Source: Helianthus annuus (lineage: Eukaryota > Streptophyta > Magnoliopsida > Asterales > Asteraceae). From it: a stretch of 64,000 bases of DNA. The notes beneath the pieces are model-generated. The model saw only the letters and a list, made by a program, of their open reading frames with translations. It ran no database searches and was not told the DNA's origin. Positions 26,097 through 58,309 of this stretch are shown piece by piece (position 1 is the first letter of the stretch; the number at the start of each line of letters is the position of its first letter). The translations under genes and the position numbers were made by a program. Where the stretch lies: the NCBI RefSeq assembly GCF_002127325.2, contig NC_035436.2, forward strand, positions 111,313,591 through 111,377,590, in the 5' to 3' direction.

Positions 26097-26099
<3 letters not shown>

Positions 26100-26555
26100 A
26101 GGATCGTTTGCTGACCCGAACGAGGCGTTCAGAGGTTTACTCTTGCAATTCAGATGCGGAATAATAAGAAAAGCAAGTAGATATAGCTTGTTCTTCCTCC
26201 TAACTGTCTTTTGTATTGATTAGAAACGATTTACAGCTTGATCGTCACACCGACAGAGCTTCGGCGTGGAATACAATTACTTCTCTATGAGGATCGCCCC
26301 AAGCAACCCTATATATAGGCTTCTGGGTCCGCTCATGTGGACATGTGACACATGAGCGGTCCAGAGCTTGTACATAAAAGCGATCCATGATGACATATAA
26401 GCGACCCAATCCTCTAAAGACCATATGAGCGATCCTAAGTTCTAAAACCTATACAGACTCCTGTTTTCTCGTATTTCGTGCCCTATGCTATACAATACAA
26501 TGCAAGACCTGATCCTAGACACCTAGACGGAATCAACAGATGTAGTGCATCAACA
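26097..26555 (-). repeat. 3' LTR of TRG-B
   Basis: 459 bp, from TGTAGGATCG to GCATCAACA, directly followed on plus by GACTCCCCCTCAG (the polypurine tract). It carries GAGCGGTCC and AAGCGATCC motifs and a TATA-like TATATATAGG at about 26311-26321. Confidence 0.92.
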
Positions 26556-28709
26556 GACTCCCCCTCAGATGTTGATGGAGTCGCCAACACACCTTGATTT
26601 CAAAACTGTGTCTTCACATCTTCAGACTAGATCAGTCTCTGGGCTTCTTCTTCTTTCAATCTTCAGATTCCCCCTCTCGATTTACTGGCATTCTTTTGTT
26701 CTTCAGTAACATCTTCAGGATCGTTGTCTGGTACTAAAAACCTCTAATTCTCTTGATCAGATCTCTTGATTCCTTAAGTTCATCAGCATCATCAGTTTGA
26801 CATGATCTTCAGAATCAGAATCTGATCTTCACAGACTTTTAGAATCGAATATCCTGGCTCTATCAAAGATCTTTAGCATTAATTTCTGGGATCGAAACCT
26901 GGCTACCTGCACAATCTTAACCCAGAAATAAATTTTCTAATTTTATCACATATCAGATACCTCTGCACCAACATATGACTCCCCTCAAAACAATCTATGA
27001 TGAACCACTTGAAGAAGGTTAGATTTATCGAAGACAATTTGATTTATACACACACTCCCCCTCAAATATTGCTCATCATGTTTAGCATTTGGAATTTTGA
27101 AAATCAGTTTTCCAACATCAATTGTCGAAAATCTTTTTGACTTTTTCAAAATTAAGCTAAAATACCCAAAAATCTTTTTGGATTTTCTGAGAAACATTAT
27201 CTGACACCAATTAGAAAATAAAAACATAAAGAAATAAAATATTTACAGACAATATTTTTGTGAGTTCGTGCAAGAGGATCATATCAGTTTATGAGACAAA
27301 TCACCAACACCGTTAAGCTAGATTTCATTTTAAGCTTTAAACAATTTACCTAGATTGTCAGTATGTTTGTCCTCTTAAATTTTCAACACAAATTTCAATC
27401 GATTCGAGATACGATATTAATATTTTAGAGACTTAAACTTAATTGTGTATCACTCCACTTGAATATACTCCCGTATCCAGATCCCAAATATTCAGTCTTA
27501 CAGGTGAGTATACCACAGATGATATCTGTAAAGGGGTAATATGCGAGGGCCGTGAGAGCTCAGGTCGATACTTCCGTATACGCAGAGAGATGACGGCTTC
27601 GACTTTTGGTGGGTCCCCTTTAGAGGATCTTTTGTTACAACAACAAAGATTACCAATTTTATTGTTTAATCAGTTTGCTGAGGGCGGCGCTTATGTTTCA
27701 AAGCTTTTTGCAGAAAGTATTATTCGGGGACTAGGTCAGTATTTCCATACAGCAGAAGTCCTGGGATAATACCCCAGATATCACTGAGTATAAAGACCTA
27801 GTATCTCAGAATACGGGACCTTTCAAACAAGATTTCGGGGGTTACCCATATATCCAAGAATAGTTACCCACGAATTAAGCAAGTTTGAATTAGATTTATA
27901 TCTCGTTTCAATTTACTAAATGTGCGAAAACCTACTGACACATCCGCAGTAAGATTGTTTAACTCTTTTTAACTTTACATTTCTTTAGCGTGCCGTGATA
28001 GTCCACTGATGTACTATCATTTCCTCTTTTTCGCAACAAAACTCAATTTTGAATTTTATCATGTTTTTGCCTTTTTCAAAATTTTCAAATGTTTTTGGAT
28101 TTTCTGAAATTTCCCTACTCCCCCTAAAATGCAAACACATTTTAAAGAAAATTTGAAAACTTCAAGATTCTTGACCTACTAGAAACATAAAATGCAAAAC
28201 AAACTGTACAGAAACTTGACAACTGACACTGAATCACATCAAATCGCCATTCACTAGGCATAAACAATCTGAACTCCCCCTATCACAAATCATTTTCTCA
28301 TTTAGATTTCAAAACACTTAAGTTTGTTTTAATCAAAATGATTTTTCCGGAAAATGAGTTTGTGTTGATAACAACCACTTGTAGGATTATCAATGTTAAA
28401 AATGGGAATGTGGTTCATCATCTTGTCTATCTTTTTTCATGAATAGTAAATCAAGTACAAATTAATGTGCCTGATTTACCATTTGCATCTAAGAACCTTC
28501 TGTACCACTTGTAAATGTAATTACTTCAAAGTAACCAAGCATCTCAAAGTTTAACCACAAATACCACTTGTGGGATCAAGATTACCACTTGTAGATACCC
28601 AAAAACTACCACGTGTAGGAATATTACATCTACATCACCATTATATCAATCAGAATGCCGATTCCTGCTTCGCAATTAACCACCTGGAAGCTCCGGCATA
28701 GTCCTTTGA
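26556..28709 (-). promoter_or_regulatory. TRG-B 3' non-coding region with five polypurine-like tracts
   Basis: Between the gag stop and the 3' LTR lie five pyrimidine runs on plus (purine on the element strand): 26556-26566 (LTR-adjacent, the true tract), 26666-26677, 27053-27063, 28118-28126 and 28272-28281. All are built on ACTCCCCCT. The region also has LTR/primer-junction-like motifs (28373-28387, 28501-28515, 28562-28625) and the conserved block 27240-27840. No sense-strand coding potential. Confidence 0.75.
27240..27840 (+). other. Conserved block with antisense ORF, TRG-B copy
   Basis: Antisense to the element. The ORF at 27443-27769 starts MCITPLEYTPVSRSQIF, identical over its first 32 codons to the ORFs in TRG-A and TRG-C. 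It then leaves the common frame through small indels while the nucleotide sequence stays recognisable (GGTGGGTCCCCTTTAGAGG, GAGGGCGGCGCTT, GGGGACTAGGTCAGTA). Frame-breaking indels argue against a protein and for a conserved DNA or RNA element. Confidence 0.6.
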
Positions 28710-28861
28710 CTATTCTGGAAAACAAACTTCCCTCCAAGTCTTCTCAGACTTGAGAACTTTCAATTCTTCAGCTGTAGGGTTGTATGTCGCCTTTTTAGTT
28801 GCGTAAAAATCTTTTACCCCTTTAGCTTTCCCACTCAACATTTTCCCAAATATCTTCTTGT

Positions 28862-29357
28862 TGGTGCACTTCATCTGCTGATTACGTCTTGTATCGAGTC
28901 ATGAGTCTTAGAACGTTAGATCTGGGCACATTATACGAGAAAATATGAAAATTGTATAGATTTGATAGATGGGCCGCTCATAGGACCAATAAGTAGTTGG
29001 GTCGCTCGAGCGGACAAGCTGGTCCGCTCGAACAGCAAAGGCCTGGACCGCTCGTGTGGTTAAATCGTTGGATCGCTCGAGTGACGGATCGCTTATGTGA
29101 ACCGCTTATTGGACCTGTCCAATAAGCGGTCCAAGAGGTCTATAAATACCTCTGGAGCGATTTCAATTGTATCTTTTGTCCGAATCTCGTACCGAAGTGC
29201 TGCCGGATCGAGAACGTGCTGTAATTGTTATCATATCAATAGAAAAACAGTTAAAAGTAATATCTAGTCTATTTCTACCTTGTTTTCTTGTTTTCCGCAC
29301 CTGAATTCAAGGAGAAAACCTCTGATTGACTCGTTCGGGTCTCCAAACGATCCTACA
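28862..29357 (+). repeat. 5' LTR of TRG-A
   Basis: 496 bp, TGGTGCACTTC...GATCCTACA. It contains seven GGAYCGCT-type cores from 28971 to 29099, a perfect 14-bp inverted repeat with 2-nt loop at 29101-29130 and a TATA box TATAAATA at 29141-29148. The LTR is its own promoter and polyadenylation region. Confidence 0.93.
29101..29148 (+). promoter_or_regulatory. TRG-A promoter: inverted motif hairpin plus TATA box
   Basis: ACCGCTTATTGGAC and its exact complement, separated by CT, lie at 29101-29130. TATAAATA follows at 29141-29148. An inverted GGACCGCTT core is thus about 7-8 bp upstream of the TATA box. The same layout is in the LTRs of TRG-B and TRG-C. Confidence 0.7.
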
Positions 29358-29359
29358 AG

Positions 29360-29371
29360 TGGTATCAGAGC
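29360..29371 (+). promoter_or_regulatory. Primer-binding site, initiator tRNA-Met (TRG-A)
   Basis: TGGTATCAGAGC, two bases after the LTR end (CCTACA/AG/TGG). Standard initiator tRNA-Met site. Confidence 0.93.
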
Positions 29372-29552
29372 ATCAGGAGGAGGAATTCTACAGGAAATAG
29401 CTGGAAATTGTTGGAAATTCTGTCTTCTACTCATTCTTTTTCAGATTCGAACTTTTTCAACGGTCGATACTTGCTAAAAATCTCAGGGATTGTGCGCGAT
29501 GGCATAGAGACAAACCCTTGAAAGTTTGGGATCTAAAATCAAAGTTTAAACA

Positions 29553-29885
29553 GGTCCGATTGGCTGGTCCGCTTTTTCGAACATATTTGGATCGCTTTTA
29601 CTAATAGTTTCTGGACCGCTTATCCGGTCGATTGTGGATCGCTCATTCGGTCAGTTGATGTTGAACCGCTCCAAATTGCACATCTAGGATTGCTTATCCG
29701 GTTTATCTTTGGACCGCTTATTCAAACATTATTCGGATCGCTCATACAATTTGCTCGAACGATCAAGTATTTGGATCGCTTTTCTGGAATTGTCTTGGAT
29801 CGCTTATTTGGTTTTTCTGGTTCGCTTTTCTGACATCATATTGGACCGCTTTTGTGTCACTTTATATTCGTGAACCGCTTTTAAA
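29553..29885 (+). repeat. 24-nt-period GGAYCGCT array in the TRG-A leader
   Basis: Thirteen copies of a core GGAYCGCT (variants GAACCGCT, GGTTCGCT, GGATTGCT), mostly followed by TATT, CATT or TTTT. Starts: 29566, 29589, 29613, 29636, 29663, 29687, 29711, 29735, 29773, 29797, 29819, 29843, 29872. Nine of twelve spacings are 22-24 nt. The DNA between cores is not conserved. All copies point the same way relative to transcription. It ends 30 bp before the gag start codon. Confidence 0.85.
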
Positions 29886-29916
29886 GCTGTTTGTAGTGTT
29901 ATTTCAATATTCGAAC

Positions 29917-32900
29917 ATGGACGAGGATTTCTATAACGCGTTCGCTACACCAAGTACACCAATCACTGCTATTCAAACCACAATGCTTGAAAACGAAACC
30001 GGAACGATGCAAAAACCTCCCAAGTTAATGAGCATTGAGGAATTTCAACATTGGGAAGGTCGGTTTGAGAATTGGGTGCAAGCTAATTATCTTGATGCTT
30101 GGGAATGTGTCGAGACAAAGTATATCAGACCAATGAATGATGATGAAGAGCCAGTTCCAATCAAAGATCTTAGAGCAGATGAGAGGAAGAAGTACAAAAA
30201 TGAGAAAATGATGCTAAGTCTTCTTCAACAGGCAGTGAAAGAAGATATCATAGTTCTGCTACAGCACAGTGGAACATCTTACTCAATCTGGAAAGCATTA
30301 AGTTCAAAATTTAAAGGAAGTGATGAAATGATTAAAAGCAAAAATTCGCTTCTAAAGAAAGAGTTTGATCTGTTCCATCAGAGAAAGAATGAAAGCACAA
30401 AAGAGCTCATTGAACGATATTGCAACTTGCTTGCTAGTATGAAAAGATTAAGTATTAAGAAGAGCAATGAGGAGTTGATCGAAAAACTTGCTGATGCCTT
30501 GCCATATGAGAGTTGGGGGACATACTTGATGATGCTCAGAAATAAGAAAGGTTTTAACAGTTTGACACTTAGCAAGTTCATCGAAAAGATAGAAGCTCAA
30601 GAAATGGAGCAGCGTAAAGTGATTAGGATGAAAGATTTCGATGGTGAACAAGATGTCGAGTTATATTACAAAGCTGGAGTTAATGAAAAATCATCGAATT
30701 CATCTCCAAAGATTGTGACGGGGATGAGTGCCAAGAGTGTATCTGAAAGCCCATCGTCTGGATCAAGCAGCAAAACCAGCTTTACTCCATTTTCATCTTT
30801 TGATCCAAACATCTCAGCAACTAAGAATGGGAAAAAGTTACAGTGTAACATTGTACTGAATCTTGAGAATGATCAAGATTATTCTGAGGATATTGCCAAA
30901 AACCAAATGTCTTTATTAGGAATGGTTTTGGAATCTTATACTTGTTTTGTTGCAGGTCGTATCGGCAATCCAATGCTAACCAAAGAAGACTATGACCAGA
31001 TAGATGCAGAAGAGATGGAGCTGATGGACATAAAGTGGTGTCTGGCGAGTGTGTTACGGAGAGCTGAGAAGTTCAAACAAATCACGGGGAGAGATGATCT
31101 TCGTGATGCAAATGTTTCTACTTTAGGTTTTGACAAATCTAAAGTTACTTGTTTTCGGTGCAAGGAAAAAGGACACTTCAAGAGAGAGTGCACAAACCGA
31201 GAAGCAAGTGGAGCTCAAAATCCGTTCAACAACAACAACGATTACTATCGCAAAGCCATCTATCACCAAGTTGGTCAATCATCTCAACAACAAAAGCATC
31301 AAGCTCAGACTGCACATGGAAGAGATGTGATTGAAGATACCGGAAAAAGAGCTTATTTGATTGATCAAGAAGATGAAAAGCTTGCAGAAGGTTTTAGCTG
31401 GGCAAAGTTCACTTGGGATGATTATGTTCCTGATCAAACTACAGCTTATACTGCTTTTGCTGCAAAGATTGAAGATGATAGTGATGATGATACAGAATAT
31501 TGGGCAAGAAAATACAGAGCTGATATGAAGTTGCTTGCTGAGAGTGAGAGTGAAGATGATAGGGTCAAGAAGGAGAAGAAAAAGAAGAAGATCAAAACGC
31601 CGTTTAGTAGTGATGATGAAGAAGGGTCGTTGATGAGTAGTGATGATGAAGAAGTGCCGGTGAGTAGTGATGATGAAGAAGTGCAAGTAGTGAGAAAGAA
31701 AAAGATGACAGAAGTGCAAAAATTCAAGATTGATGAAAAAGTTGATGCGAAAGAAACTCAGGTGAAGTGTGAAAATTGTGAGATTGTGAAAAAGCAGAAC
31801 AGCACGTTGATTAACAACTTAAACAGACTGAAGGAGTCTTATGATGTGCTGAACAAGACAATGAATCAGTACGATCAAACAAGTGAAGAACAAGCAGTTG
31901 CGATGAGGACTCTTCAGGGAGCATTCATGACAAAACAAAAAGTTGTAAACAACTATATTGAAAAGTGTGCTGCGTTAGAACAAAAACTTGAGTTGCAACG
32001 AATTGAAACAGAAAGAGTGAATCGTTTATTGAAAAGTTACTCATGTACTTCCTATGTGATTGACAGGATCTATCCAACTGTTGAAAGCATGAAGGTCTGG
32101 GAAGAAGATGAGTCAACTGAAGAAAAAGCAGCTGAAGTGAGTAATGGAGAAAAGAGTGCTGACAAGAAGAAAAGTGACAGGAAGAAGGATACTGAAAAGA
32201 CTTCATCTGGTAAGAAGAAAGGTGTTAGTTATAACAGATGTCCACCTCCACTGGAAAACGGATATTTGCCTAGACATCCTAACGATGAAAGAGTCAAAAA
32301 GGCTACTAATCTACAGTGGGAGTCAGAGTCGTCTGTCAATCTTCCTGAAAGTATCGATGTTGTTTTTACGTCATCTGACACTGATCAACAATCTCAATTG
32401 ATGAAGATAGTCGTGGATCATGTGTTAGATAGTGATGACAGTGAAGAGTCAAAGTCAGAGTCTGCGTCAGAATCAAAATCTGAGTCAAAAGCTCCGAGTC
32501 AAACAGAAAAACAGGGAAAATTGGCTTATGATAGAAAATTCCTGTTATCAAAATCTAATTTGGATGATGGATTGTTTAAAGTTGCTTATACTTTAAATAA
32601 CTCGGACAAATTATATTCTGATGAGGAATTTCCTATAAGAGGTGTTAAAACTGAACTGATTAACAAGGTTTTTATACTCTCGGAAATCCATATTTCCGAA
32701 ATCAAAGGTTTATGTCTTAATGAAAAACCAAGACCTTACACCTCAAGAGTGCAGCAAAGATTGAATAAGAAAAAGAAATACAGTTCTGGTTCAAATTTTC
32801 AAAAGAAATCAAACCATAACGGTAATTTCAAAAAGAAAGGGTTGGGTTTTATTCCTACAGAAAAACAGAAAAATGAAAAATATGTTCGTGATTTTAAGTC

Positions 32901-33657
32901 CAAAATGTCTTTTGTTTCAGGCACATCTACTGATGAAGAAGAGAAGACATGCTTCTGGAGAGAAAAGAACAGTGAGTTTCTGAAAAAGAAACAAGCTGTA
33001 CAAGAGAAAGATTCGAGAACCTGTTTCAAGTGCAACAAAGTTGGACATATTGCCAAAGATTGTAATCAGGCAATACAATCAAAACAGGGAGTTTTTCGAA
33101 AATTCTCAGAAAAGGTGTATGTGTTTGAAACTCCACTGGATAGAACAAAATTGTTTAAAGATTCTATTTTTGAAATTGGTGAGAGTTCGACCAAGTTTTA
33201 CAAAAAGAGAGCCAAATCTCGCAACCAGAAATGGGTTGTGAAGAATGGTGGTGAAAGCTCTAGCGATGATTCTGATAGATCGAAATCAGAGGAGCTATCT
33301 TCAGGCGATGAAACTGATTCCACAAAGTCAGTTGAGCCACAAGTTGATTTAAAATGTGAAGCTAATGTAAAAAATGAGAACTCAGTTCCGATGGTTAATG
33401 ATGATGAATTTCCATCACTTCGGGCTGAGAATTACAAAAAGAAAATTGGTAAAGTTGAGATTTCTAACCAATTTTTCCATGATGAACAGGAATTTGATGC
33501 TGAAAAGGTCTTTAACCCCAGGGTAAAACATATTTTTGGTAAAATAATTGATCGAAAAGTCAAAGGGGTTAAAGAATTCTATGAGAAGAAGACAAAGAAA
33601 GAAAAAGTTGAACCATCCCTGGTTTGTGACTGGGATGGTACATATTTCGAACAGTAA
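29917..33657 (+). CDS. gag: Large gag-like protein of TRG-A (two CCHC knuckles, no pol)
   Basis: 1,246 aa from ATG 29917 (MDEDFYNAFATPSTP), chosen because the homologous proteins of TRG-B and TRG-C start at the matching residue; an upstream in-frame ATG at 29854 would lie in the motif array. About residues 30-230: copia-type gag (UBN2-like) with WEGRFENWVQANYLDAW, KEFDLFHQRKNEST, LIERYCNLLASMKRLS and WGTYLMMLRNK. About 340-400: a second conserved segment (AGRIGNPMLTKEDYDQIDAE). CCHC1 CFRCKEKGHFKREC about 411-424. Acidic SSDDEE repeats about 560-590. Coiled coil about 625-705. Basic region with YTSRVQQRLNKKKK about 945-960. CCHC2 CFKCNKVGHIAKDC about 1036-1049. Acidic/basic tail ending DWDGTYFEQ. 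Expected to form the virus-like particle and bind the RNA. It is two to three times the usual copia gag length, and no catalytic domain follows. Confidence 0.9.
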   Translation: MDEDFYNAFATPSTPITAIQTTMLENETGTMQKPPKLMSIEEFQHWEGRFENWVQANYLDAWECVETKYIRPMNDDEEPVPIKDLRADERKKYKNEKMMLSLLQQAVKEDIIVLLQHSGTSYSIWKALSSKFKGSDEMIKSKNSLLKKEFDLFHQRKNESTKELIERYCNLLASMKRLSIKKSNEELIEKLADALPYESWGTYLMMLRNKKGFNSLTLSKFIEKIEAQEMEQRKVIRMKDFDGEQDVELYYKAGVNEKSSNSSPKIVTGMSAKSVSESPSSGSSSKTSFTPFSSFDPNISATKNGKKLQCNIVLNLENDQDYSEDIAKNQMSLLGMVLESYTCFVAGRIGNPMLTKEDYDQIDAEEMELMDIKWCLASVLRRAEKFKQITGRDDLRDANVSTLGFDKSKVTCFRCKEKGHFKRECTNREASGAQNPFNNNNDYYRKAIYHQVGQSSQQQKHQAQTAHGRDVIEDTGKRAYLIDQEDEKLAEGFSWAKFTWDDYVPDQTTAYTAFAAKIEDDSDDDTEYWARKYRADMKLLAESESEDDRVKKEKKKKKIKTPFSSDDEEGSLMSSDDEEVPVSSDDEEVQVVRKKKMTEVQKFKIDEKVDAKETQVKCENCEIVKKQNSTLINNLNRLKESYDVLNKTMNQYDQTSEEQAVAMRTLQGAFMTKQKVVNNYIEKCAALEQKLELQRIETERVNRLLKSYSCTSYVIDRIYPTVESMKVWEEDESTEEKAAEVSNGEKSADKKKSDRKKDTEKTSSGKKKGVSYNRCPPPLENGYLPRHPNDERVKKATNLQWESESSVNLPESIDVVFTSSDTDQQSQLMKIVVDHVLDSDDSEESKSESASESKSESKAPSQTEKQGKLAYDRKFLLSKSNLDDGLFKVAYTLNNSDKLYSDEEFPIRGVKTELINKVFILSEIHISEIKGLCLNEKPRPYTSRVQQRLNKKKKYSSGSNFQKKSNHNGNFKKKGLGFIPTEKQKNEKYVRDFKSKMSFVSGTSTDEEEKTCFWREKNSEFLKKKQAVQEKDSRTCFKCNKVGHIAKDCNQAIQSKQGVFRKFSEKVYVFETPLDRTKLFKDSIFEIGESSTKFYKKRAKSRNQKWVVKNGGESSSDDSDRSKSEELSSGDETDSTKSVEPQVDLKCEANVKNENSVPMVNDDEFPSLRAENYKKKIGKVEISNQFFHDEQEFDAEKVFNPRVKHIFGKIIDRKVKGVKEFYEKKTKKEKVEPSLVCDWDGTYFEQ

Positions 33658-35511
33658 GTCTCAAGACTTGCCGGAGCTCCCAGGTTGGTAAGCGTGGAGC
33701 ATGAATCGGCATCTTTCTCAGAATTTTATTCGGTAACGTCAATCATAAAAACGGTAAAGAGGTTTGTTTGTGAATGTTTTACAATTGGTACGGAGGTTTC
33801 TGAACTGAAAATGGTAAATCAAGGACATTAAGTTGTACTTGTATTTTCCTACATTGGTCGAAAGACAAGATGATGAACCACAACCCCGAACATTTGTTGG
33901 ATATTTCTACAAATGATAATCTACAATTGGTAAAATCAATCAAACTTATTTTCCGGAAAAACCATTTTGATTAAAACAAACTTAAGTGTTTTGAAATCTA
34001 AATGGGAAAATAGTTTGTTGATAGTGGGAGTTCTGATTGTTTATGCCTAGTGAATGGCGAATTGAGGAGATTCGATATCAGTTGTCATGTTCTGTATAGT
34101 TTGTTTTCAATTTTCATTAGATGTATTTGAATTTTAGGGGGAGTAAGAAGTTTTAGAGAAAATCCAAAAACATCAGAAAATTTGAAAAAGTCAAAAACAT
34201 GATAATATCAAAAATGAGTTTTTGTTGCATAAAAGAGGAAATTATAGTACATCAGTGGACTATCACAACACGCTAAAGAATTGGAAAGTCAAAATGTGAT
34301 AAACGATCTTACTGCGGATGTGTCAGTAGATTTTCGCACATTTAGTAAATTGAAACGAGATATAAACCTAAATCAAACTTGCTTAATTCGTGGGTAACTA
34401 TTCTTGGATATATGGGTAACCCCCGAAATCTTGTTTGAAAGGTCCCGTATTCTGAGATACTAGGTCTTTATACTCAGTGATATCTGGGGTATTATCCCGG
34501 GACTTCTGCTGTATGGAAGTACTGACCTAGTCCCCGGATAATACTTTCTGCAAATGCTTGAAAAAGCGCCGCCCTCAGCATGCTGATGAAACAATAAAAT
34601 TGATAGTCGCTGCTGTTGAAATGCAAAAAGATCCTCTAAAGGGGACCCACCAAAAGTCGAGCCGTCATCTCTCTGCTGAACGGAAGTTCTGACCTGAGCT
34701 CTCACGGTTTCGCATTTAACCCCTTTACAGATATCATCTGTGGTATACTCACCTGTAAGACTGAATATTTGGGATCTGGATACGGGAGTATATTCAAGTG
34801 GAGTGATACACAATTAAGTTTAAGTCTCTAAAACATTAATATCGTATCTCGAATCGATTGAAAATTGTGTGAAGATTTAAGTGGACAAACATACTGACAA
34901 TCTAGGTAAATTGTTTATAACAGAGTATGTTTAAAGCTTAACGGTGTTGGTGTTTTGTCTCAAAACTGATATGATCCTCTTGCACGAGCTCACAAAAAAT
35001 ATTGTCTGTAAATAGTTTATTTCTGCATTTTTATTTCTCTTTCAAAAAATTCAAAAAGATTTTTGGTGTGTTTTAGCATAAATTTTTGAAAATTCAAAAA
35101 GATTTTCGACAACTGATGTTGAATAGCTGATCTTCAAAATTCCGAGTGCTAAACATTATGAGCAATACTTGAGGGGGAGTGTGTGTGTGAAATTCAAAGT
35201 TTACATAATCTAATCTTCCAAGTGGTTCATCACAATATCTGAATTTGTTTAAATGAGAATCTGAATTGGTGCAGACTTATATGTTTAAAAATTGTTTGAT
35301 AGAGAAATTTACTCTGTGTTTGAGTGTATGCAGAAAAGTCAGACGTTGATCCTGAAGATGTTGCTGAAGAACAAAGGAATGCCAGCAAATCGAGAGGGGA
35401 AGTCTGAAGATTGAGAAAGAGAAGCCCGAAGACTGATCAAGACTGAAGATCTGTTGACAGCATTTGTGTGACTCGATAATCGACTCCATCAACATCTGAG
35501 GGGGAGTTTGT
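33658..35511 (+). promoter_or_regulatory. TRG-A 3' non-coding region with repeated polypurine-like tracts
   Basis: GCCGGAGCTCCCAGG just after the gag stop is conserved in all three TRG elements. Polypurine-like sites: 34019-34032 (one base off), 34134-34146, 35169-35180, 35391-35404 and the LTR-adjacent CTGAGGGGGAGTTTGT at 35496-35511. Primer-junction-like motifs TACAATTGGTA occur at about 33780-33790 and 33922-33932. The conserved block lies at 34440-34990. No sense ORF. Confidence 0.75.
34440..34990 (-). other. Conserved block with 117-codon antisense ORF, TRG-A copy
   Basis: The antisense ORF at 34813-34460 (MCITPLEYTPVSRSQIF ... SPGIIPQISLSIKT) differs from the TRG-C copy by one residue in 117. 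The nucleotide match is almost complete here, tighter than in the gag genes of the same two elements. No known domain. Whether it is translated is doubtful because the TRG-B copy has frame-breaking indels. Confidence 0.6.
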
Positions 35512-36007
35512 TGGTGCACTTCATCTGCTGATTACGTCTTGTATCGAGTCATGAGTCTTAGAATGTTAGATCTGGGCACATTATACGAGAAAATATGAAA
35601 ATTGTATAGATTTGATAGATGGGCCGCTCATAGGACCAATAAGTAGTTGGGTCGCTCGAGCGGACAAGCTGGTCCGCTCGAACAGCAAAGGCCTGGACCG
35701 CTCGTGTGGTTAAATCGTTGGATCGCTCGAGTGACGGATCGCTTATGTGAACCGCTTATTGGACCTGTCCAATAAGCGGTCCAAGAGGTCTATAAATACC
35801 TCTGGAGCGATTTCAGTTGTATCTTTTGTCCGAATCTCGTACCGAAGTGCTGCCGGATCGAGAACGTGCTGTAATTGTTATCATATCAATAGAAAAACAG
35901 TTAAAAGTAATATCTAGTCTATTTCTACCTTGTTTTCTTGTTTTCCGCACCTGAATTCAAGGAGAAAACCTCTGATTGACTCGTTCGGGTCTCCAAACGA
36001 TCCTACA
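35512..36007 (+). repeat. 3' LTR of TRG-A
   Basis: 496 bp. Matches 28862-29357 with two transitions found by eye (in GAATGTTAGA and in TTTCAGTTGT). Confidence 0.93.
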
Positions 36008-39000
36008 CTTGTTAACATTCCCGTTGAATGTTTTCTCGACATCAAATTCCTTTTCTTCATTATAAAATTGATTTGAAATTTCAATTTTGCCAACTTTCTT
36101 TTTAACCTCTTCAAACTTCAGTGATGGAAAAACATCATCATTCACTGAAACTTTCTTCACAACTTGTGGCTCTTCTGGCTTTGTGGAACCAGATTCATCG
36201 CCGACTTTTTCTTCTACCTTTTTAGCAACCCACACTTGGTTGTCATTTCCTTTTCTTTTGTAAAATTTTTCTCTTTTCCTTTTTTCTGTTTTCGAACATT
36301 CCCCAACTTCATTTTTCGAATTTTTAAAAATTTTGGATTTCTCAGATTTTTCAACTACTTTTTCTTTTAACTTCTGAGATTCTTCCTGTTTTGCTTTGGT
36401 CTCTTTTGAGCAATTCGATGCATTGTGACCAGCTTCACTGCATTTAGAACAGGTTTGACTATTTCTCGGATGAAATACTCCAGTTCCATTCTTTCTCCTC
36501 TCAGCAAGAAACTCTTTGTTAGACTGTCTCCAAAATGATTTCTGCTGTTCGTCTTCCGAGCTTCCACCTGTCACAAATTCAGTGTTTGATTTAAAATTTT
36601 TCTCATTTTTGTAATTTTCTGATGGAACAAAACCTAAACCTTTCTTTTTGTAGCTACACTTTTGGTTAGATTTCTTGTGAAAACCAGAACCAGAATTGTA
36701 ACCTTTTTTCTTATTTAAACGTTGTTGAACTCTAGAAGTATATTTTTTAGATTTATCAAAACTTTTCAAAACTTTTAGTTCAGAAATATTAACCTCTATT
36801 AGTTTAAAAGTTTTGTTGATTAATTCCGTTTTGATACTCATTATCGGAACCTCTTTGTTGTAATATAATTTGTCAGAACCATTCAAAGTATACACAACTT
36901 CAAATGTTTCATCATTCAAATCTACCTTTGATAACAAAAATTCTTTACTATAAGACCGTTTAACCGACGAATTTTGACTGTTGACTGACGACTTTGGCTT
37001 TTCAGACTCAGACTTCGACACTGTCTCCTCATCAGTATCCAACACCTGATCGACCACCTTTTTGATTAATTCAGACTCATGATCAGTATCGGATGAGGTA
37101 AACGTCACATCAATGTTTTCTGGTAAGACGTCAGTTGTATTGGTTTTAAGCTGTATATTGACTGCTTTTGCATGTTGCTCCTCATTTGGTTTCCTAGGTG
37201 AATACCCATCCCAAATCGGAGGTGGACACTTGTTATAGCTAACAGTAGTTTTCTTACCACAGTCTTTCTTTTCTTTCGGCTTTTCATCTTGAAAAGCTTC
37301 CATACCTGCAACAGTTGGGTACACACGATCAATAAGATAATCAGAGGTAGAATAGCCCAACAATAACCTCTTAATCCTCTCATTTTCAATCTTTTCAGTT
37401 TCCAACTCTTGCTTCCATTTGGCGCTTTCTTCAATGTAGAAATTTATAGCTTTTTGCTTCGACATTAAAGTTGCATTCATCATTGTCAGCGCCTGTTCTC
37501 TTTCCGTGTTTGTCTTTTGAAGACCAGTTACTGTTTTGTTCAACATGTCGTATGATTCCTTCACATAATTGAGATTGAACAGTAACTGCTCTTTCTTTTT
37601 CTCGTACTCAGCTATGATATCATCTTTTGCTGCACACTCTTTGCAGGCTTCCAGACACTTCTCACATGGCTTGACGACTTCAACAATTTTTTCAACTTCG
37701 ACTGTTTTTACAACTTCAATCACTTTTTCTACTTCAATCACCTTTTCTACTTCTTTCACAACCTCACCAATCTTCTCAGCAACATTTTCAGCATTCTGAA
37801 CATCACTTTCAGATTCAGATTGTTGTTCTTTAGCAGCTTGTTTCTCTTTTAGTTTCTCCATTTTTTCTGCAAAATAAAAATGAAAACTTTCAGGAGACAT
37901 ATGAGATTTTGCAATATTTATATGTTTCTCTTCCTCATCATCACTACTACTATGATCTGGTGATTGATCAAATTGAACAGATTTTTCAGAATCATCATCA
38001 GAAACACCAGAATTAGATGGTGTTTTGTCAAATACAACATCCTGTTCTTGAACAGTTTCATCTTGTACAATTTCATCTGAACTATCTGACACATCCTCAG
38101 AGTGTTCTGAAAGTCTATCAGTACTATCTGAACTTTCATCATATGACACGGACTTTTCATCTCCACTTGACACATTCTCTCCAATAGATCTCATCCAAGT
38201 AGCAAACAAATTTGGCTCTCGGACGATCTTGGCAATGAAAGCTTTAAAACCTCCCTTTTCATCCACGAACATATCCCAACTGAAACCTTCTGGTAGTTTC
38301 TCATCATCTTGATCGATAACTCGTTCTGCTATGGCTTCAGATGATATGTAATCACTCCAGCTGAAATCTACAATACATGCTCTTTTGGAATCTTCAATCT
38401 TTCTCCCATGAGCTGTCTGCGGTTCTTGGGATTGACCAACTTGTTGATAGATAGCTTTGCGGTAGTAATCATCTTTCCCGAATGGATTATGTGCTCCACT
38501 AGCTTCTCTTCCTTTGCACTCCCGCTTGAAATGGCCCTTCTCCCTGCATCGAAAACAAGTAACTTTAGATTTATCAAAACCTAAAGTAGAAACATGTGCA
38601 TCAAGAAAGTCATTTCTCCCGGTAATAGTTTTGAATTTCTCAGCCCGACGAAGAACACTAGCAAGACACCACTTGATATCCATGAGTTCCATCTCTTCGG
38701 CGTCTATCTGATCGTAATCCTCTTTGGTGAGCATAGGATTTCCGATCCGACCAGCAACAAGTCCCTCATAAGAAAATAGAACAGAACCAAGAAGTGACAT
38801 ATGATCTTTCGCAGTGTCTTCAGAGAAGCTTTGACCTTCTGGAAGGTTGAGAGCTATGTTGCACTGAATCACATATCCGTTTCCAGTTTTTGTACCCTGA
38901 GACTGAAAACTCGTTTTAGTCTCTTTTGGATTCACAATCGGAAACGATGAAAACCCACAGCTACTCATGTTCGAACCCTGATCAGCTTTCTCAGATGAAT

Positions 39001-39849
39001 CACCAGCACTGAAAGCGGTTTGAATTTTCGGGCTTCTTTCAGACTCAGTCGCAGGAATACTACCCCTGTAATACATCTTCACATCTTGCTGACTACTCGG
39101 GCTATTCATTCTTGCGATCTTTTGTTGCTCAAGATCCCGACTTTCTATTTTCTCAATGAACTGTGAGATAGTCAACCCATCATACACACCCGTATTCTTC
39201 AAGATCATCAAATACGTTCCCCACTCTTTCTGAGGTAACGCGTCAGCCAATTTATCCACCCATTCCTCACGACCTTTTTCAACTCCTAGCATCGATAACG
39301 ACCGCACCAGGTGACAGTATCTCTCGATTAGCTTCTTAGTATCCTCTCCTGGCAAACTACTGAACAGATCGAACTCTTTCTTTAATAAAGCTTTCTTGCT
39401 TTTAATCATGTTTTCGCTACCCTCAAACTTGACTTTCAAAGCATCCCAAATTGACTTAGCAGTTTTGTCGTGTTGCAACAAAATGAATATATCTTCTTTT
39501 ATTGCCTGCTGTAACAAACTAATCATCATTTTCTCTGCTCTATACATTGCTCGTTCTTGTTCAGTAAACTCAGATATCTCTTTAATAACTTGCAATTCTG
39601 TTCGAGGCAATGTGTACTTCTTCAATATGCATTCCCATGATCTAAGATGGTTTGCTTGAACCCAGTTTTCAAACCTATCTTTCCACCCATAGTACTCCTC
39701 AATGCTCATCAATCTAGGGGGCTTTTGAGTCGTTCCCGTCTCATTTTCTAAGTTCATTGCTTGAGCAATTGCAGCTGGAGTGGTTGATGTAGCAAAGGCG
39801 TTGAAAAACTCAGAATTCATGATGACTTAACACGAATTTCAAAACAACT

Positions 39850-40180
39850 GACAGAAAAGCGGTTCTACAGTGAACAGAAAGGCGATCCAAAACAATTCTT
39901 TGAAGCGGTCCAGAAATCTTAATCTAAGAGCGGTCCTCAAACTGATTTTGAGCGATCTAAAAAAAAACTGTCTTATAAGCGATCCAGAAATAACTACTCG
40001 AGCGATCCAACAATGTTCACAAGAGCGGTTCAAGAATAAAATTTCGAGCGGTCCATGAATGTACTATGAGCGATCCAGGTGATTAATTTTGGAGCGGTTC
40101 AGAGGCAATTTTGTATTAATGAGCGGTCCAAAACACTAAATTATGAGCGGTTCACGATGATGTCATTCGAGCGGTCCATA
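39850..40180 (-). repeat. 24-nt-period GGAYCGCT array in the TRG-B leader
   Basis: Fourteen cores (plus-strand AGCGGTCC/AGCGATCC/AGCGGTTC). Starts: 39858, 39881, 39904, 39928, 39951, 39978, 40001, 40024, 40047, 40069, 40093, 40122, 40146, 40170. Spacings are 22-24 nt except 27 and 29. Sense-strand orientation and position just upstream of the gag start are as in TRG-A, but the intervening bases are unrelated. Confidence 0.85.
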
Positions 40181-40379
40181 TTACGAACAAGTTTTGATCT
40201 GTTTTTAAGCTCAATTTTGGTCTGAAACTTCCAAGGGTTTGTCTCGGTATGATAATGAACAATCTGTGAAAATTTGAACTAAATTCAACCGTGAAATCTC
40301 CTGGAAATGAGAAAAGAAGGTGTAGAAGTGAGAAGAAACAGTGAAATCCGGCTATAATCTGCAGAAAACCTCCTCCCAA

Positions 40380-40391
40380 GCTCTGATACCA
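40380..40391 (-). promoter_or_regulatory. Primer-binding site, initiator tRNA-Met (TRG-B)
   Basis: The minus strand reads TGGTATCAGAGC next to the 5' LTR end (CCTACCAG here, against CCTACAAG in TRG-A). Confidence 0.92.
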
Positions 40392-40392
40392 C

Positions 40393-40847
40393 TGGTAGGA
40401 TCCTTTGCTGACCCGAATGAGGCGTTCAAAGGTTTACTCTTGCAATTCAGATGCGGAATAATAAGAAAAGCAAGTAGATATAGCTTGTTCTTCCTCCTAA
40501 CTGTCTTTTGTATTGATTAGAAACGATTTATAGCTTGATCGTCACACCGACAGAGCTTCGGCGTGGAATACAATTACTTCTCTATGAGGATCGCCCCAAG
40601 CAACCCTATATATAGGCTTCTGGGTCCGCTCATGTGGACATGTGACACATGAGCGGTCCAGAGCTTGTACATAAAAGCGATCCATGATGACATATAAGCG
40701 ACCCAATCCTCTAAAGACCATATGAGCGATCCTAAGTTCTAAAACCTATACAGACTCCTGTTTTCTCGTATTTCGTGCCCTATGCTATACAATACATTGC
40801 AAGACCGGATCCTAGACACCTATACGGAATCAACAGATGTAGTGCAT

Positions 40848-40852
<5 letters not shown>
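40393..40852 (-). repeat. 5' LTR of TRG-B
   Basis: 460 bp, partner of 26097-26555. It contains AGCGGTCC/AGCGATCC/AGCGACCC cores at 40652, 40676, 40697 and 40725, an oppositely oriented GGTCCGCT at 40624 that can pair with the first of these, and a TATA-like TATATATAGG at about 40607-40616. Confidence 0.92.
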
Positions 40853-52003: not shown

Positions 52004-52592
52004 TGTAGGATCGAATTTCGACCTAAACGAGTCGTTTGGAAGAGCTCAACTCCGTTTCAGAGGCGGAAACAAGGAAACGGATGCGTACACAGCTTGTATC
52101 ATACTTAAATCCTCTTGTATATTGATTTTACAACGTTTCGATTACAAGGAAAAACCGGCAATACCTCGGTATCAGATCTGAAAGTTGTTACAAATGAAAT
52201 GAACAATGATCCTATATATACTAGTTTGGGATCGCTCGAAATTACATGCCATAAAAGCGATCCATGAACATTACACTAAAAGCGATCCATCAACTTGTCA
52301 AATAAGCGATCCGAACAGATTCCTTAAAAGCGGTTCACAAGTTTGTCTTTTGACTTCACATGTTGTCATTTGATCTTTGAGAAGTGGAATCTCATTGGAC
52401 CCTCATTTGGTCCAATCAACACAAAGATCCAACATGTTTTGTCGTTTACATGAAATCCTTTAATGATAATCATATTTTTCTTGATGATGTCACATGATGT
52501 CATCATTGAACATGATAACATCATGCTTGACCAGATCCGCATCGCAACCCGAACTCGACATTAGACGTAGTCGACAGATGACTGCACCAACA
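52004..52592 (-). repeat. 3' LTR of TRG-C
   Basis: 589 bp, TGTAGGATCG to CACCAACA, followed on plus by the polypurine complement GACTCCCCCTCAG. It carries AAGCGATCC cores and TATATATACTAG near 52213-52224. Confidence 0.92.
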
Positions 52593-54440
52593 GACTCCCC
52601 CTCAGATGTTGACGAGTCTTAAGTGTCGAGTCTTCAACGACTTCAGTCTTTCTCACAATCTTCGGGCTTCTTTCTCTCTATCTTCAGACTCCCCCTCTCG
52701 ATTTGCTGACATTCCTTTGATCTTCAGCAACATCTTCAGGATCGACGTCTGGCTTTCCTGCATAAACTCTACCTCAGAGTAAATTTCTTTCACATACATA
52801 TTTTAAACATATGAACTTGCACCAATCCAGATTCTCATTCAAAACAAACACAGATATTTTGATGAACCACTTGACAGGTTAGATTATGAAAACATTTAAT
52901 TTCACACACACACTCCCCCTCAAGAATTGCTCATCATGTTTAGCACTCGGAATTTTCAAAAATCAGCTATTCAATATCAGTTGTCGAAAATCTTTTTGAA
53001 TTTTCAAAAATTTATGCTAAAGCACACCAAAAATCTTTTTGTATTTTGAAATAAAGAAACTAAAATGCAGAAATAAACTATTTACAAACAATATTTTTGT
53101 GAGCTCGTGCAAGAGGATCATATCAGTTTGTGAGACAAATCACAAACACCGTTAAGCTATAAACATACTCAGTTCTAAACAATTTACCTAGATTGTCAGT
53201 ATGTTTGTCCACTTAAATCTTCACACAAATTTCAATCGATTCGAGATATGAAATTAATGTTTTAGAGACTTAAACTTAATTGTGTATCACTCCACTTGAA
53301 TATACTCCCGTATCCAGATCCCAAATATTCAGTCTTACAGGTGAGTATACCACAGATGATATCTGTAAAGGGGTTAAATGCGAAACCGTGAGAGCTCAGG
53401 TCAGAACTTCCGTTCAGCAGAGAGATGACGGCTCGACTTTTGGTGGGTCCCCTTTAGAGGATCTTTTTGCATTTCAACAGCAGCGACTATCAATTTTATT
53501 GTTTCATCAGCATGCTGAGGGCGGCGCTTTTTCAAGCATTTACAGAAAGTATTATCCGGGGACTAGGTCAGTACTTCCATACAGCAGAAGTCCCGGGATA
53601 ATACCCCAGATATCACTGAGCATAAAGACCTAGTATCTCAGAATACGAGACCTTTCAAACAAGATTTCGGGGGTTACCCATATATCCAAGAATAGTTACC
53701 CACGAATCAAGCAAGTTTGATTTAGGTTTATATCTCGTTTCAATTTACTAAATGTGCAAAAATCTACTGACACATCCGTAGTAAGATCGTTTATCACATT
53801 TTGACTTTCCAATTCTTTAGCGTGTTGTGATAGTCCACTGATGTACTATCATTTCCTCTTTTATGCAACAAAAACTCATTTTTGATTTTATCATGTTTTT
53901 GACTTTTTCAAATTTTCTGATGTTTTTGGATTTTCTCTAAAAATTCTTACTCCCCCTAAAATTCAAATACATCTAATGAAAATTGAAAACAAACTATACA
54001 GAACATGACAACTGATATCGAATCTCCTCAATTCGCCATTCACTAGGCATAAACAATCAGAACTCCCCCTATCAACAAACTATTTTCCCATTTAGATTTC
54101 AAAACACTTAAGTTTTTTTTAATCAAAATGGTTTTTCCGGAAAATAAGTTTGAATGATTTTACCAATTGTAGGTTACCATTTGTAGGAATATCCAACAAA
54201 TGTTCGGGGTTGTGGTTCATCATCTTGTCTATCGACCAATGTATGAAAATACAAGTACAAATTAATGTCCTTGATTTACCATTTTCAGTACAGAAACCTC
54301 TGTACCAATTGTAAAACATCAACAAACATAAACAAACCTCTTTACCGTTTGTATAAATGACATTACCGAATAGACTTCAAGAAAGATGCCGATTCATGCT
54401 CCACGCTTACCAACCTGGGAGCTCCGGCAAGTCCTGAGAC
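52593..54440 (-). promoter_or_regulatory. TRG-C 3' non-coding region with five polypurine-like tracts
   Basis: Five plus-strand ACTCCCCCT sites: 52593-52604 (LTR-adjacent), 52687-52698, 52911-52921, 53950-53958 and 54062-54071, in the same order as in TRG-A and TRG-B. Primer-junction-like ACCAATTGTA at 54159-54168 and 54304-54313. The GCCGGAGCT motif after the gag stop is at about 54420-54430. No sense ORF. Confidence 0.75.
53100..53660 (+). other. Conserved block with 117-codon antisense ORF, TRG-C copy
   Basis: ORF 53280-53633 on plus, antisense to the element; one residue (Tyr for Cys) differs from the TRG-A copy. Flanking bases (GCTCGTGCAAGAGGATCATA) are conserved too, so conservation is not limited to the ORF. 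Confidence 0.6.
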
Positions 54441-57400
54441 TTACTGTTCAAAATATGTACCATCCCAGTCACAAACCAGGGATGGTTCAACTTTTTCCTT
54501 CTTTGTCTTCTTCTCATAAAATTCTTTAACCCCTTTGACTTTTCGATCAATCATTTTGCCAAAGATATGTTTTACCCTGGGGTTAAAGACCTTTTCAGCA
54601 TCAAATTCCTGTTCATCATGATAAAATTGGTTAGAAATCTCAACTTTACCAATTTTCTTTTTATAATTTTCAGCCCGAAGTGATGGAAACTCATCATCAC
54701 TAACACTCGGAACTGAGTTTTCAACTTTTACATCAGCTTCACATTTTGATACAACTTGTGGCTCCACTGACTTTGTGGAATCAGTTTCATCGCCTGAAGA
54801 TAGCTCCTCTGATTTCGACCTATCAGAATCATTGCTAGATCTCTCACCTCCATTCTTCACAACCCATTTCTGGTTGCTAGATTTGGCTCTCTTTTTGTAA
54901 AACTTGGTCGAACTCTCACCAATTTCAAAAATAGAATCTTTAAACAGTTTTGTTCTATCCAGTGGTGATTCGAACGCAAACACCTTTTCTGAAATTTTTC
55001 GAAACACTCCCTGTTTTGATTGTATCGCCTGAGAACAATCTTTGGCGATATGTCCAACGTTGTTGCACTTGAAACAGATTCTCGAGTCTTTCTTTAGTTC
55101 AGCTTGTTTCTTTTTCAAAAACTCACTGTTCTTTTCCCTCCAGAAACATGTTTTTTCTTTTTCATCTGTTGATGTACCTGAAACAAAGGACATTTTGGAT
55201 TTAAAATCACGGACATATTTTTCATTTTTCTGTTTTTCTGTCGATGTAAAACCTAATCCTTTCTTTTTGAAATTACCGCTATGGTTTGATCTCTTTTGGA
55301 AACCAGAACCAGAACTGTAATTCTTTTTCTTGTTTAATCTCTGTTGTACTCTTGAGGTGTATTTTTTAGATTTATCATTAAAACATAAGCCTTTGATTTC
55401 AGAAATATTGATTTCCGAGAGTATAAAAACCTTTTTAATCAGTTCAGTTTTGACACCTCTTAATGGAAATTCCTCATCAGAATATAATTTGTCCGAATTA
55501 TTCAAAGTATAAACAACTTTAAACAACCCATCATCCAAATTAGATTTTGATAACAAGAATTTTCTATCATAGACTAATTTTCCCTGTTTTACTGTTTGCC
55601 CCAGAGTTTTTGACTTAGATTTCGACTCTGACGCTGACTCCGACTTTGACTCTTCGCTGTCATCACTATCTAACACATGATCCACGACTTTCTTCATCAA
55701 TTGAGACTGTTGATCAGTGTCAGATGATGTGAACACAACATCAATACTTTCTGGAAGATTGACCGATGACTCTGACTCCCACTGTAAATATGTAGCCTTT
55801 TTGACTCTTTCATCGTTAGGATGTCTAGGCAAATATCCGTTTTCCAGTGGAGGTGGACATCTGTTATAACTGACACCTTTCTTCTTACCAGATGAAGCCT
55901 TTTCAGTATCCTTTTTCTTGTCACTCTTCCTCTTGTCAGCAATCTTTTCTTCAATACTGACTTCAGCTGCTTTTTCTTAAGTTACCTCATCCTCTTCCCA
56001 GACCTTCATGCTCTCAACAGTCGGATAAATCCTGTCAATCACATAGGAAGTACATGAGTAACTTTTCAATAAACGATTTATTCTTTCAGTTTCTATTCGT
56101 TGCAGCTCAAGCTTCTGTTCTAAAGCAGCACATTTTTCAATGTAATTGTTTACAACTTTTTGTTTTGTCATAAATGCTCCCTGAAGAGTCTTCATTGCTA
56201 CAGCTTGCTCTTCACTAGTTTGATTGTACTGATTCATTGCCTTGTTCAGCACATCATAAGACTCCTTCAGTCTGTTTAAGTTGTTAATCAACGTGCTGTT
56301 CTGCTTTTTCACAATCTCACAATTTTCACACTTTACCGGAATCTCTTTCGCATCAACTTGTTCTTCAACTTTAAACTTAGGCACTTCTGTCATCTTTTGC
56401 CTTCTTACCACCGGCACCTCTTCATCATCACTACTCACCGGTGTCTTAATCTTCTTCTTTTTCTTTTCCTTCTTGACTTTTTCGTCTTCGCTATCACTCT
56501 CAGCAAGCAGCTTCATATCTTCTCTGTCTTTTCTCGCCCAATACTCTGTATCATCATCACTATCATCTACAATCTTTGCTGTAAATGCAGTGTAAGCTGT
56601 AGTTTAATCAGGAACATAATCATCCCAAGTGAACTTTGCCCAGCTAAAACCTTCTGCAAGCTTTTCATCTTCTTGATCAATCAAACAAGCTTTTCCATTT
56701 TCTGGTATGTAGTTATCCCAGGTAAATGATTTCTTTTGATTTGGATTAACCACACAAGCTCTTTTTCCGGTATCTTCAATCACATCTCTTCCATGTGCAG
56801 TCTGAGCTTGATGTTTTTGTTGTTGAGATGATTGACCAACTTGGTGATAAATGGCTTTGCGATAGTAATCGTTGTTGTTGTTGAACGGATTTTGAGCTCC
56901 ACTTGCTTCTCAGTTTGTGCATTCCCTCTTGAAGTGTCCTTTTTCCCTGCACCGAAAACAAGTGACTTTAGATTTGTCAAAACCTAAAGTATAAACATTC
57001 GCATCACGAAGATCATCTCTCCCCGTGATTTGTTTGAACTTCTCAGCTCTCCGTAAAACACTAGCCAAACACCACTTTATATCCATCAACTCCATCTCTT
57101 CAGCATCTATCTGGTCGTAGTCTTCTTTGGTTAGCATTGGATTGCCGATACGACCTGCAACAAAACAAGTGTAAGATTCCAAAACCATTCCTAATAAAGA
57201 CATTTGGTTTTTTGCAATATCCTCAGAATAATCTTGATCATTTTCAAGATTCAATACAATGTTGCACTGTAATTTTCTCCCGTTTTTAGTTGCAGAGATG
57301 TTCGGATCAAATGATGGAAATGAAGTAAAACTGGTCTTGCTGCTTGATCCAGATGATGGGCTTTCAGAGAAGCTCTTGGCACTCATACCAGTCACAATCT

Positions 57401-58193
57401 TTGGAGATGAATTCGACGATTTCTCATTTACCCCAGCTTTATAATATAATCCGATATCTTGTTCACCATCGAAATCTTTCATTCTAATCACTTTTCTCTG
57501 TTCCATTTCTTGAGCTTCGATCTTTTCGATGAACTTACTGAGCGTCAGATTGCTAAAACCTTTCTTGTTTCTGAGCATCATCAGGTATGTGCCCCAACTC
57601 TCATATGGCAACGCATCAGCAAGTTTGTCAATTAACTCTTCATTACTCTTCTCAATACTTAACCTTTTCATATTTGCAAGCAGATTACAATAACGTTCAA
57701 TAATCTCTCTCGTACTCTCATTTTTCAACCCACGAAAAAGATCAAATTCTTTCTTTAAAAGCGACTTCTTGCTTTTAACAATCTCTTCACTTCCCCTAAA
57801 CTTCGAACGTAACGCTTTCCAGATTGAGTAAGACGTTCCATTATGCTGTAGCAGAACCATGATATCTTCTTTCACTGCCCGTTGAAGAAGACTTAGCATC
57901 ATTTTCTCATTTTTGTACTTCTTCCTCTCATCATCTCTAAGATCTTTGATTGGAACTGGCTCTTCATCACTATTCAATGGTCGAATATACTTTGTTTCCA
58001 CACATTCCCAAGCGTCAAGATAATTCGCTTGCACCCAATTCTCAAACCGACCTTCCCAACCTTTGTATTCTTCGATGTTCATTAACTTGGGAGGTTTTTG
58101 CATCGTTCCGGTTTCGTTTTCGAGCATTGTGGTTTGAACAGCAGTGATTGGGGTACTCGGAGTAGCGAATGCGTTGTAAAAATCAGAATCCAT
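54441..58193 (-). pseudogene. gag: TRG-C gag-like ORF with three in-frame stops
   Basis: A single frame of 1,250 codons from ATG 58193 (MDSDFYNAFATPSTP) to the stop at 54441 (DWDGTYFEQ). Three premature stops interrupt it: TGA at 56910-56912 (CGA in TRG-A, directly after the first CCHC knuckle), TAA at 56604-56606 (CAA in TRG-A) and TAA at 55977-55979 (GAA in TRG-A). There is no frameshift. The domain order is as in TRG-A. It has an extra Ser/Trp-type segment (FTWDNYIPENGKACLIDQ) after the first knuckle. Very similar to TRG-A in sequence but probably not functional. Confidence 0.9.
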
Positions 58194-58309
58194 GCTTCAA
58201 GAATCAGATGATATTTCGGGAAATACCTGAAAGACAAACAAACAACACAATCAGTTTAAAAATTTATCAATTAATAGAATCGAAATGGTACTCGAACTGA
58301 TGAATTTTC

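Follow-up and report, generated by a model that had tools for sequence, protein, structure and literature searches.

Three LTR elements with an extended Gag ORF, here called A, B, and C, lie inside a 64-kb window of Helianthus annuus DNA (the window being the whole stretch that was analyzed), and we found that each of them carries one short word, GGAYCGCT, many times over in two places: in the 5' leader ahead of gag, as an array of copies in a single orientation, and in the U3 region of the LTR, where a run of direct copies closes in an inverted copy exactly 16 bp before the TATA box. We lean, with modest confidence, toward explaining the array as a multimerized recognition site for one sequence-specific DNA-binding protein, serving as promoter and as downstream enhancer or insulator. 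An earlier sequence-only reading of the leader of A had proposed three roles for its array, namely binding of a transcription factor, binding of Gag in RNA packaging, and control of translation or splicing. Binding of a factor to DNA fits best because the word also lies upstream of the TATA box at a fixed distance; the other two proposals fare less well.

Anatomy of the three elements

We delimited the LTR pairs of A, B, and C with blastn, used lists of ORFs, and identified Gag domains with Pfam. Element A (28858..36007, plus strand) is an LTR retrotransposon with an extended Gag ORF, bounded by LTRs that are 99.6% identical (5' 28858-29357, 3' 35508-36007). Its TATA box, TATAAATA, is at 29141..29148, and TGGTATCAGAGC at 29360..29371, read from the sequence, is the primer binding site, of the initiator-Met tRNA type. 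The extended Gag ORF of A (29917..33657, plus strand) encodes 1246 aa with two CCHC knuckles. Element B (26098..40852, minus strand; LTRs 5' 40395-40852 and 3' 26098-26555, 98.5% identical) is split by A: the final 51 nt of the Gag ORF of B (35957..39820, minus strand) are inside the 3' LTR of A, so that A sits in B near the 3' end of the gag ORF. Element C (52004..59938, minus strand) is flanked by a 5-bp direct repeat, CTTTC, and has LTRs that are 99.3% identical (5' 59350-59938, 3' 52004-52592); its Gag is broken into three ORFs, with the N-terminal piece at 56910..58193 (minus strand). These LTR identities suggest that all three elements inserted recently. The LTR pairs differ at 2 (A), 7 (B), and 4 (C) positions, none of them in a core, though these numbers are too small to say much. 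Adjoining the insertion of C, a minus-strand ORF (51564-52022) resembles by eye a piece of Gypsy pol.

PF14223 and zf-CCHC were found in B and C, and A yielded zf-CCHC alone at E 0.01, its 96% identical homologue P0002 being listed with PF14223. The best match of the A Gag was a Helianthus annuus protein, at 96% identity over the full length. Our homologue search with this Gag scored the 7995 candidates sharing most words, resulting in 183 above threshold, and among the 120 of these that were listed, 119 bear a Helianthus name and the remaining one is without a name. No Gag relatives were confirmed in viral contigs. Two pattern scans of viral contigs gave at least 120 and 51 stretches, respectively, which do not enter the analysis. 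We found no pol in A, where, apart from gag, no stop-to-stop ORF overlapping the region between gag and the 3' LTR exceeded 117 aa, the longest being antisense; none in C, where the sense ORFs of at least 120 aa inside the element were the three Gag pieces (the middle one judged by eye); and none in B among the ORFs of at least 200 aa in the window list. With two LTRs, a Gag, and no pol ORF found, the earlier naming of A as a gag-only element (TRG-A) fits, and by their ORF content A, B, and C all appear to fit the gag-only TR-GAG class. PF22936, a Pol-associated domain, is present in four of the A-Gag homologues listed, so that some relatives may have pol. In looking for a DNA-binding fold in the Gag extension, we obtained an AlphaFold2 model of the C-terminal 492 residues with a mean pLDDT of 38.8, a confidence too low for use, and no PDB chain matched the extension at E 0.01.

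The repeated word in the leaders

The leader array of A (29566..29879, plus strand) holds 13 sense copies with at most one mismatch, whereas 300 shuffles averaged 0.42 such copies and never exceeded 3. All 13 core starts given by the sequence-only reading were reproduced exactly, as were its 12 spacings (23, 24, 23, 27, 24, 24, 24, 38, 24, 22, 24, and 29). It had counted 13 copies of GGAYCGCT, and the 13 sites are indeed present, but the word is exact in only 8 of them and carries one mismatch in the other 5. The array was also said to stop 30 bp before the gag ATG; the last core in fact ends 37 nt before that ATG, at 29917. The leader array of B (39858..40177, minus strand) has 14 sense copies and that of C (58911..59099, minus strand) has 8, of which 2 are exact and 6 have one mismatch. 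The constant sense orientation noted for A therefore extends to 35/35 leader copies across the three elements. Units were picked by allowing at most one core mismatch, so more decayed ones, for instance in gaps of 38 and 33 nt, would escape. The leader of C has two more one-mismatch words, antisense and both far from the array.

Spacing is regular without being strict. Taking A, B, and C together, 25 of the 32 leader spacings are 22-25 nt, with a median of 24, and base autocorrelation (lags 5-60) was highest at lag 24 for both A and C, and for B at lags 46 and 23. Helical phasing of the leader sites was not found (vector lengths 0.18, 0.05, and 0.39, against 0.25, 0.24, and 0.31 at random). 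A coding repeat, in which 24 nt would stand for 8 codons, was rejected because only 15/32 leader spacings are multiples of 3; the stretch 29665-29916 happens to be open in the gag frame of A. Tandem Repeats Finder covered just 29771-29853 of the A array, at 70% matches, and listed neither the B array nor the main C array. Past its main array and ahead of gag, the long leader of C has a second word cluster (58580-58763, minus strand) in which RCCGCCC(C)A appears four times in about 180 nt, possibly another repeated site.

Across the 64 kb, we found 40 exact GGAYCGCT words where 0.98 were expected (the largest number in 100 shuffles was 4), and all 40 fall in the LTRs or leaders of A, B, and C. 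Dense clustering of a word is not, as such, unique to these arrays within the window. In a scan of 8-mer word families in 350 bp, the B and A arrays reached 12 and 11 sites, fewer than the words at 23028 (17) and 18880 (13); a word at 13360 also had 11. The clusters at 23028 and 13360 are, however, tandem repeats over their length according to Tandem Repeats Finder, and the arrays of A, B, and C are not. The first of these (23028-23373; 17 sites of the AACACTAT family in 350 bp) is inside a 111-nt tandem repeat with 89% matches and looks like an ordinary satellite-like repeat; that at 13359-13620 is a 51-nt tandem repeat of 5.2 copies with 81% matches. The cluster at 18880-19230, where the GATGGTGG word family has 13 sites in 350 bp, is partly a 45-nt tandem repeat. 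Elsewhere in the window, direct repeat blocks at 3273-5094 and 11368-12664, 96-99% identical and about 7.6-8.1 kb apart, are perhaps a segmental duplication or another LTR element.

Extent of the motif

Aligning the 35 leader units on the core, we found that the motif spans about 15 bp (TGGAYCGCTYNWNNG), with the extended pattern T(-1) GGAYCGCT Y(+8) N W(+10) N N G(+13). T at -1 is present in 28/35 units, C or T at +8 in 34/35, A or T at +10 in 35/35, and G at +13 in 21/35 (P 1.2e-7). The same positions are kept in 15 sense units from the LTRs, where G at +13 is found in 13 (P 2.3e-7), and none of the four played a part in picking the units. The spacers had been described as unrelated. This is incorrect for positions -1, +8, +10, and +13 and correct for the others, which have no unit-to-unit similarity beyond position-wise composition. 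The broader claim, that the core and a rough spacing are kept while most spacer bases are not, was borne out in 3/3 elements of the window. A missing period, or spacers as conserved as the cores, would have spoken against selection on core plus spacing; neither is seen in A, B, or C. Scanning the 64 kb with the extended motif (threshold 9 bits) gave 74 hits, of which all but 3 isolated ones (71) fall within the three leaders or the six U3 regions; because the matrix was built from the same units, only the absence of other clusters is informative.

Copies upstream of the TATA box

The array had been presented as a feature of the leader only, which does not hold: the 5' LTR of A has another 7 direct copies and 1 inverted copy upstream of its TATA box. 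The direct copies form a U3 array at 28971..29106 (plus strand), with starts at 28971, 28999, 29021, 29045, 29070, 29086, and 29099, and are followed by the inverted core (29125..29132, minus strand), whose start precedes the TATA by 16 bp. In the 3' LTR of A, this array recurs with its 7 direct copies and 1 inverted copy (35621..35782, plus strand). In B (U3 array 40623..40732, minus strand) and C (59575..59682, minus strand), four direct copies are followed by an inverted core that again starts 16 bp upstream of the TATA, located at 40614-40607 in B and at 59566-59559 in C (both minus strand). From inverted core start to TATA, the LTR coordinates are 267 to 283 in A, 222 to 238 in B, and 356 to 372 in C. 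For B we took the TATA at LTR position 238; a second TATA-like word occurs at 320. More inverted one-mismatch words were seen at LTR position 488 in A and 257 in B.

The distance is thus the same in 3/3 LTRs, even though the LTRs of A and C barely align. With three elements from one window, it may stem from shared descent; toward their 3' end, the LTRs of A and B retain 77% identity across 124 columns. The U3 regions were predicted to fold more stably than shuffled sequences (A, z -4.8; in a second computation, -5.7, -2.3, and -2.0 for A, B, and C), as inverted copies would produce.

On the DNA-binding explanation, the run of direct sites in U3, closing in the inverted site before the TATA, would form a proximal promoter, and the 8-14 leader sites in one orientation would form a downstream, transcribed enhancer or insulator block. 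One protein would read both blocks, and the many loosely spaced sites would make its recruitment dose-dependent and tolerant of mutation. The putative binder would probably be a host transcription factor or chromatin protein, and its effect on the element may be activation rather than insulation or repression. DNA sites need not all be in sense, as the leader copies are, though tandem growth would yield such an arrangement. We know of no protein that binds the GGAYCGCT word, which counts against this explanation, as does the lack of helical phasing among the leader sites.

Divergence of LTRs and leaders

We compared the three elements outside the arrays. By blastn, A and C are 89.6% identical in the first gag piece (1275 columns) and 93.3% in the 3' region (1863 columns), yet the alignment of their LTRs spans only 41 columns, and in their leaders no more than two pieces of the array, 112 and 44 columns long, could be aligned. 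Ungapped comparison in windows of 20 bases gave 14-20 matches within gag, and 3 and 9 matches in the two windows that immediately precede its start. The gags of A and B are more distant than those of A and C, and the leaders of A and B align over 173 columns (69%) before the array; the leaders of B and C align over 82 columns. We left aside the global identities computed for short pieces of leader and LTR, since shuffled sequences reached equally high scores.

Since the gag and 3' regions of A and C are close and their LTRs and leaders nearly unalignable, LTR plus leader would appear either to have been exchanged or to evolve far faster than the rest. The motif has been kept in both where its context was not, given the 16-bp distance that all three LTRs share despite the nearly unalignable LTRs of A and C. 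The bodies at 29917-35507 (A) and 52593-58193 (C), about 90-93% alike in the first gag piece and 3' region, make the pair a candidate for LTR-plus-leader exchange. For Tnt1, an extra U3 box has been described as the probable result of template switching (PMC2923131). It is conceivable, if doubtful, that LTR plus leader is a portable control cassette swapped among Gag-only sunflower elements, and that its two arrays, one on either side of the transcription start, are targeted by a single sequence-specific anti-silencing or insulator protein. If so, plants would have a gypsy-like or VANC-like system in an LTR retrotransposon.

Alternative explanations

Our second reading, after a DNA recognition site, is RNA packaging: the sense-only leader array would be a multivalent site for the zinc knuckles of Gag, by which genomic RNA is packaged, and the U3 copies would act close to that RNA's 3' end. 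Nucleocapsid proteins typically bind exposed G-rich words, and Gag has its two CCHC knuckles. All 35 leader copies are in sense, as are the direct U3 copies, which are located in the 3' end of the RNA. There is no RNA-level reason, however, for an inverted copy at a fixed 16 bp from the TATA in 3/3 LTRs. Nor are the cores more accessible than the spacers in the predicted leader RNA, with unpaired values of 0.30 vs 0.45 in A, 0.40 vs 0.40 in B, and 0.35 vs 0.38 in C. Rfam gave no match over 28800-30000, which also speaks against packaging, and the leader RNAs had no more structure than shuffled sequences (A, z -0.64; B, z +2.75). We regard packaging as unlikely.

The arrays may also be neutral remnants of an old 24-nt minisatellite in which the spacers decayed and the cores survived by chance, conversion, or recognition bias. 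Their uniform orientation and a period near 24 would follow naturally, and C has a younger 24-nt tandem repeat with a related word near the end of its leader (58309..58367, minus strand; 2.5 copies, 85% matches, core-like TGTCCGCWCA), which hints at a way for such arrays to begin. By eye, one unit of the arrays could be aligned among the leaders of A, B, and C, pointing to a probable common origin of the three arrays. Among units, identity was 0.79-0.85 in the cores and 0.37-0.43 in the spacers, where unrelated sequence would give 0.28-0.31; picking units with at most one core mismatch accounts for part of the core value, and this bias favors the neutral account. Against it, the unpicked positions +10 and +13 are conserved and the spacers are far less alike than the (picked) cores. 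Adjacent units were no more alike than distant ones (P 0.19, 0.57, and 0.43), and unit pairs stayed within the range of position-wise shuffles: the maximum was 11/14 matches where the null mean maximum was 11.0, and 4 pairs reached at least 11/14 where the null, with position-wise composition kept, gave 1.7. On these comparisons, the main arrays appear to bear no clear trace of recent tandem growth. The word is also found in the LTR at a fixed distance from the TATA, and we give a neutral origin only a slim chance.

CpG observed/expected is 1.19-1.52 in the arrays, compared with 0.71 (A) and 0.52 (B) in the adjoining leaders, though 1.46 in C. CpG-bearing repeats of this kind might be a target of host silencing, met by small-RNA and methylation machinery or by a repressor, so that the array harms the element; tandem repeats can indeed be targets of RNAi and silencing (PMC5735166). 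A purely harmful site should nonetheless be lost by the element and not kept, and the anatomy of U3 resembles a promoter, leaving this explanation very improbable.

Upstream ATGs are scarce in the leaders. Placing the predicted transcription start 30 nt after the first base of the TATA, we counted 15 ATGs in the predicted transcribed leaders, compared with 43.0 in shuffles (0/500 as low), and 5 in the array zones, compared with 14.8 (0/500 as low). In the 3' regions, ATG and its reverse complement are near balance (30/27 in A, 37/30 in C). The leader ratio of ATG to CAT (15 to 52) was set aside as main evidence because the motif itself often contains CTCAT. Given this depletion, the leader including its array probably belongs to the translated gag mRNA, with ribosomes probably scanning through, which could be taken to favor translation control; for splicing control there are the matches to strict splice patterns, namely four 5' sites in C and, in A as well as in B, a single 3'-like stretch. 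Strict patterns gave no 5' splice site in the leader of A or B, the array is not structured, and the word lies upstream of the TATA too, so that control of translation or splicing by the array is scarcely credible.

Comparison with known systems

We searched the open-licence literature and, in the text available there, came across no plant LTR element described as having a leader array of this kind. TR-GAGs, LTR elements with gag only, have been reported among sunflower transcripts (PMC9784723, PMC11728184); the excerpts of these two papers mention no leader array, and the four likely TR-GAGs of PMC11728184 are Galadriel (Gypsy), whereas A, B, and C carry a Copia-type Gag. Tobacco Tnt1, a plant Copia element, has repeated BII boxes in U3 upstream of the TATA, as here, and these are said to bind defence-induced factors (PMC3316501); their sequence differs, and the excerpt mentions no leader array. 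Among plants, the U3 part is most closely paralleled by the repeated motifs of Sireviruses, Copia elements whose LTRs have many CG-bearing copies upstream of the TATA, suspected of regulation (PMC2829016); multiple copies in that position are found in A, B, and C. Each Sirevirus motif, however, is palindromic (CGG-CCG symmetry), whereas single sunflower units are not and it is the last direct copy and the inverted copy that face each other; the additional Sirevirus copies described lie before env, while the second sunflower cluster is in the 5' leader.

Two further plant systems share the density of the array. VANDAL21 of Arabidopsis has dense same-orientation word arrays in its non-coding parts, gained via tandem repeats and bound by VANC21 (PMC5735166), and the 35 sense copies in the sunflower leaders resemble them in this respect. 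VANDAL21 is, however, a DNA transposon, its word YAGTATTAY does not occur in the sunflower arrays, and its element-encoded trans factor VANC21 causes methylation loss (PMC5735166). A 2026 paper on sunflower methylation raises the VANDAL21 parallel for LTR elements in general (PMC12844716). In intron-mediated enhancement, about a dozen TTNGATYTG motifs in about 300 transcribed nt act in a dose-dependent manner and are active unspliced in a 5' UTR or exon (PMC6760150). That word is not found here, the sunflower units having G (35/35) and C (35/35) at its last two positions instead of T and G, and it had no effect upstream of the start site (PMC6760150), where the sunflower word occurs too.

In anatomy, the Drosophila gypsy insulator is a close match to the leader arrays. 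It consists of 12 Su(Hw) sites with a 12-bp consensus and short, variable, AT-rich spacers, within 340 bp of the 5' UTR (PMC2374998). The sequence-only reading knew of no described LTR element with such an array; the gypsy leader with its 12 sites shows that statement to be wrong. Both systems have about a dozen degenerate short cores (13, 14, and 8 copies here) with variable spacers in a 5' leader. They differ in that the Su(Hw) consensus contains TGCATA, which is not seen with the core GGAYCGCT, and in that gypsy is a fly element with a known binding protein, while the sunflower word is also present in U3 before the TATA. None of the gypsy, Sirevirus, VANDAL21, and intron-mediated enhancement motifs fits on sequence. 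In Drosophila, the copia element likewise carries a repeated enhancer in its leader. Binding of a chromatin protein to the copia leader has been described (PMC2443393). Control of plant LTR elements has mostly been sought in U3. As a candidate for a plant insulator or a downstream enhancer, the leader array would come in natural variants that differ in copy number and spacing, and the extended motif could serve to fish out the putative binding protein directly. A leader array built on the gypsy plan and sharing its word with the promoter would thus offer a simple, testable handle on the transcription of Gag-only elements.
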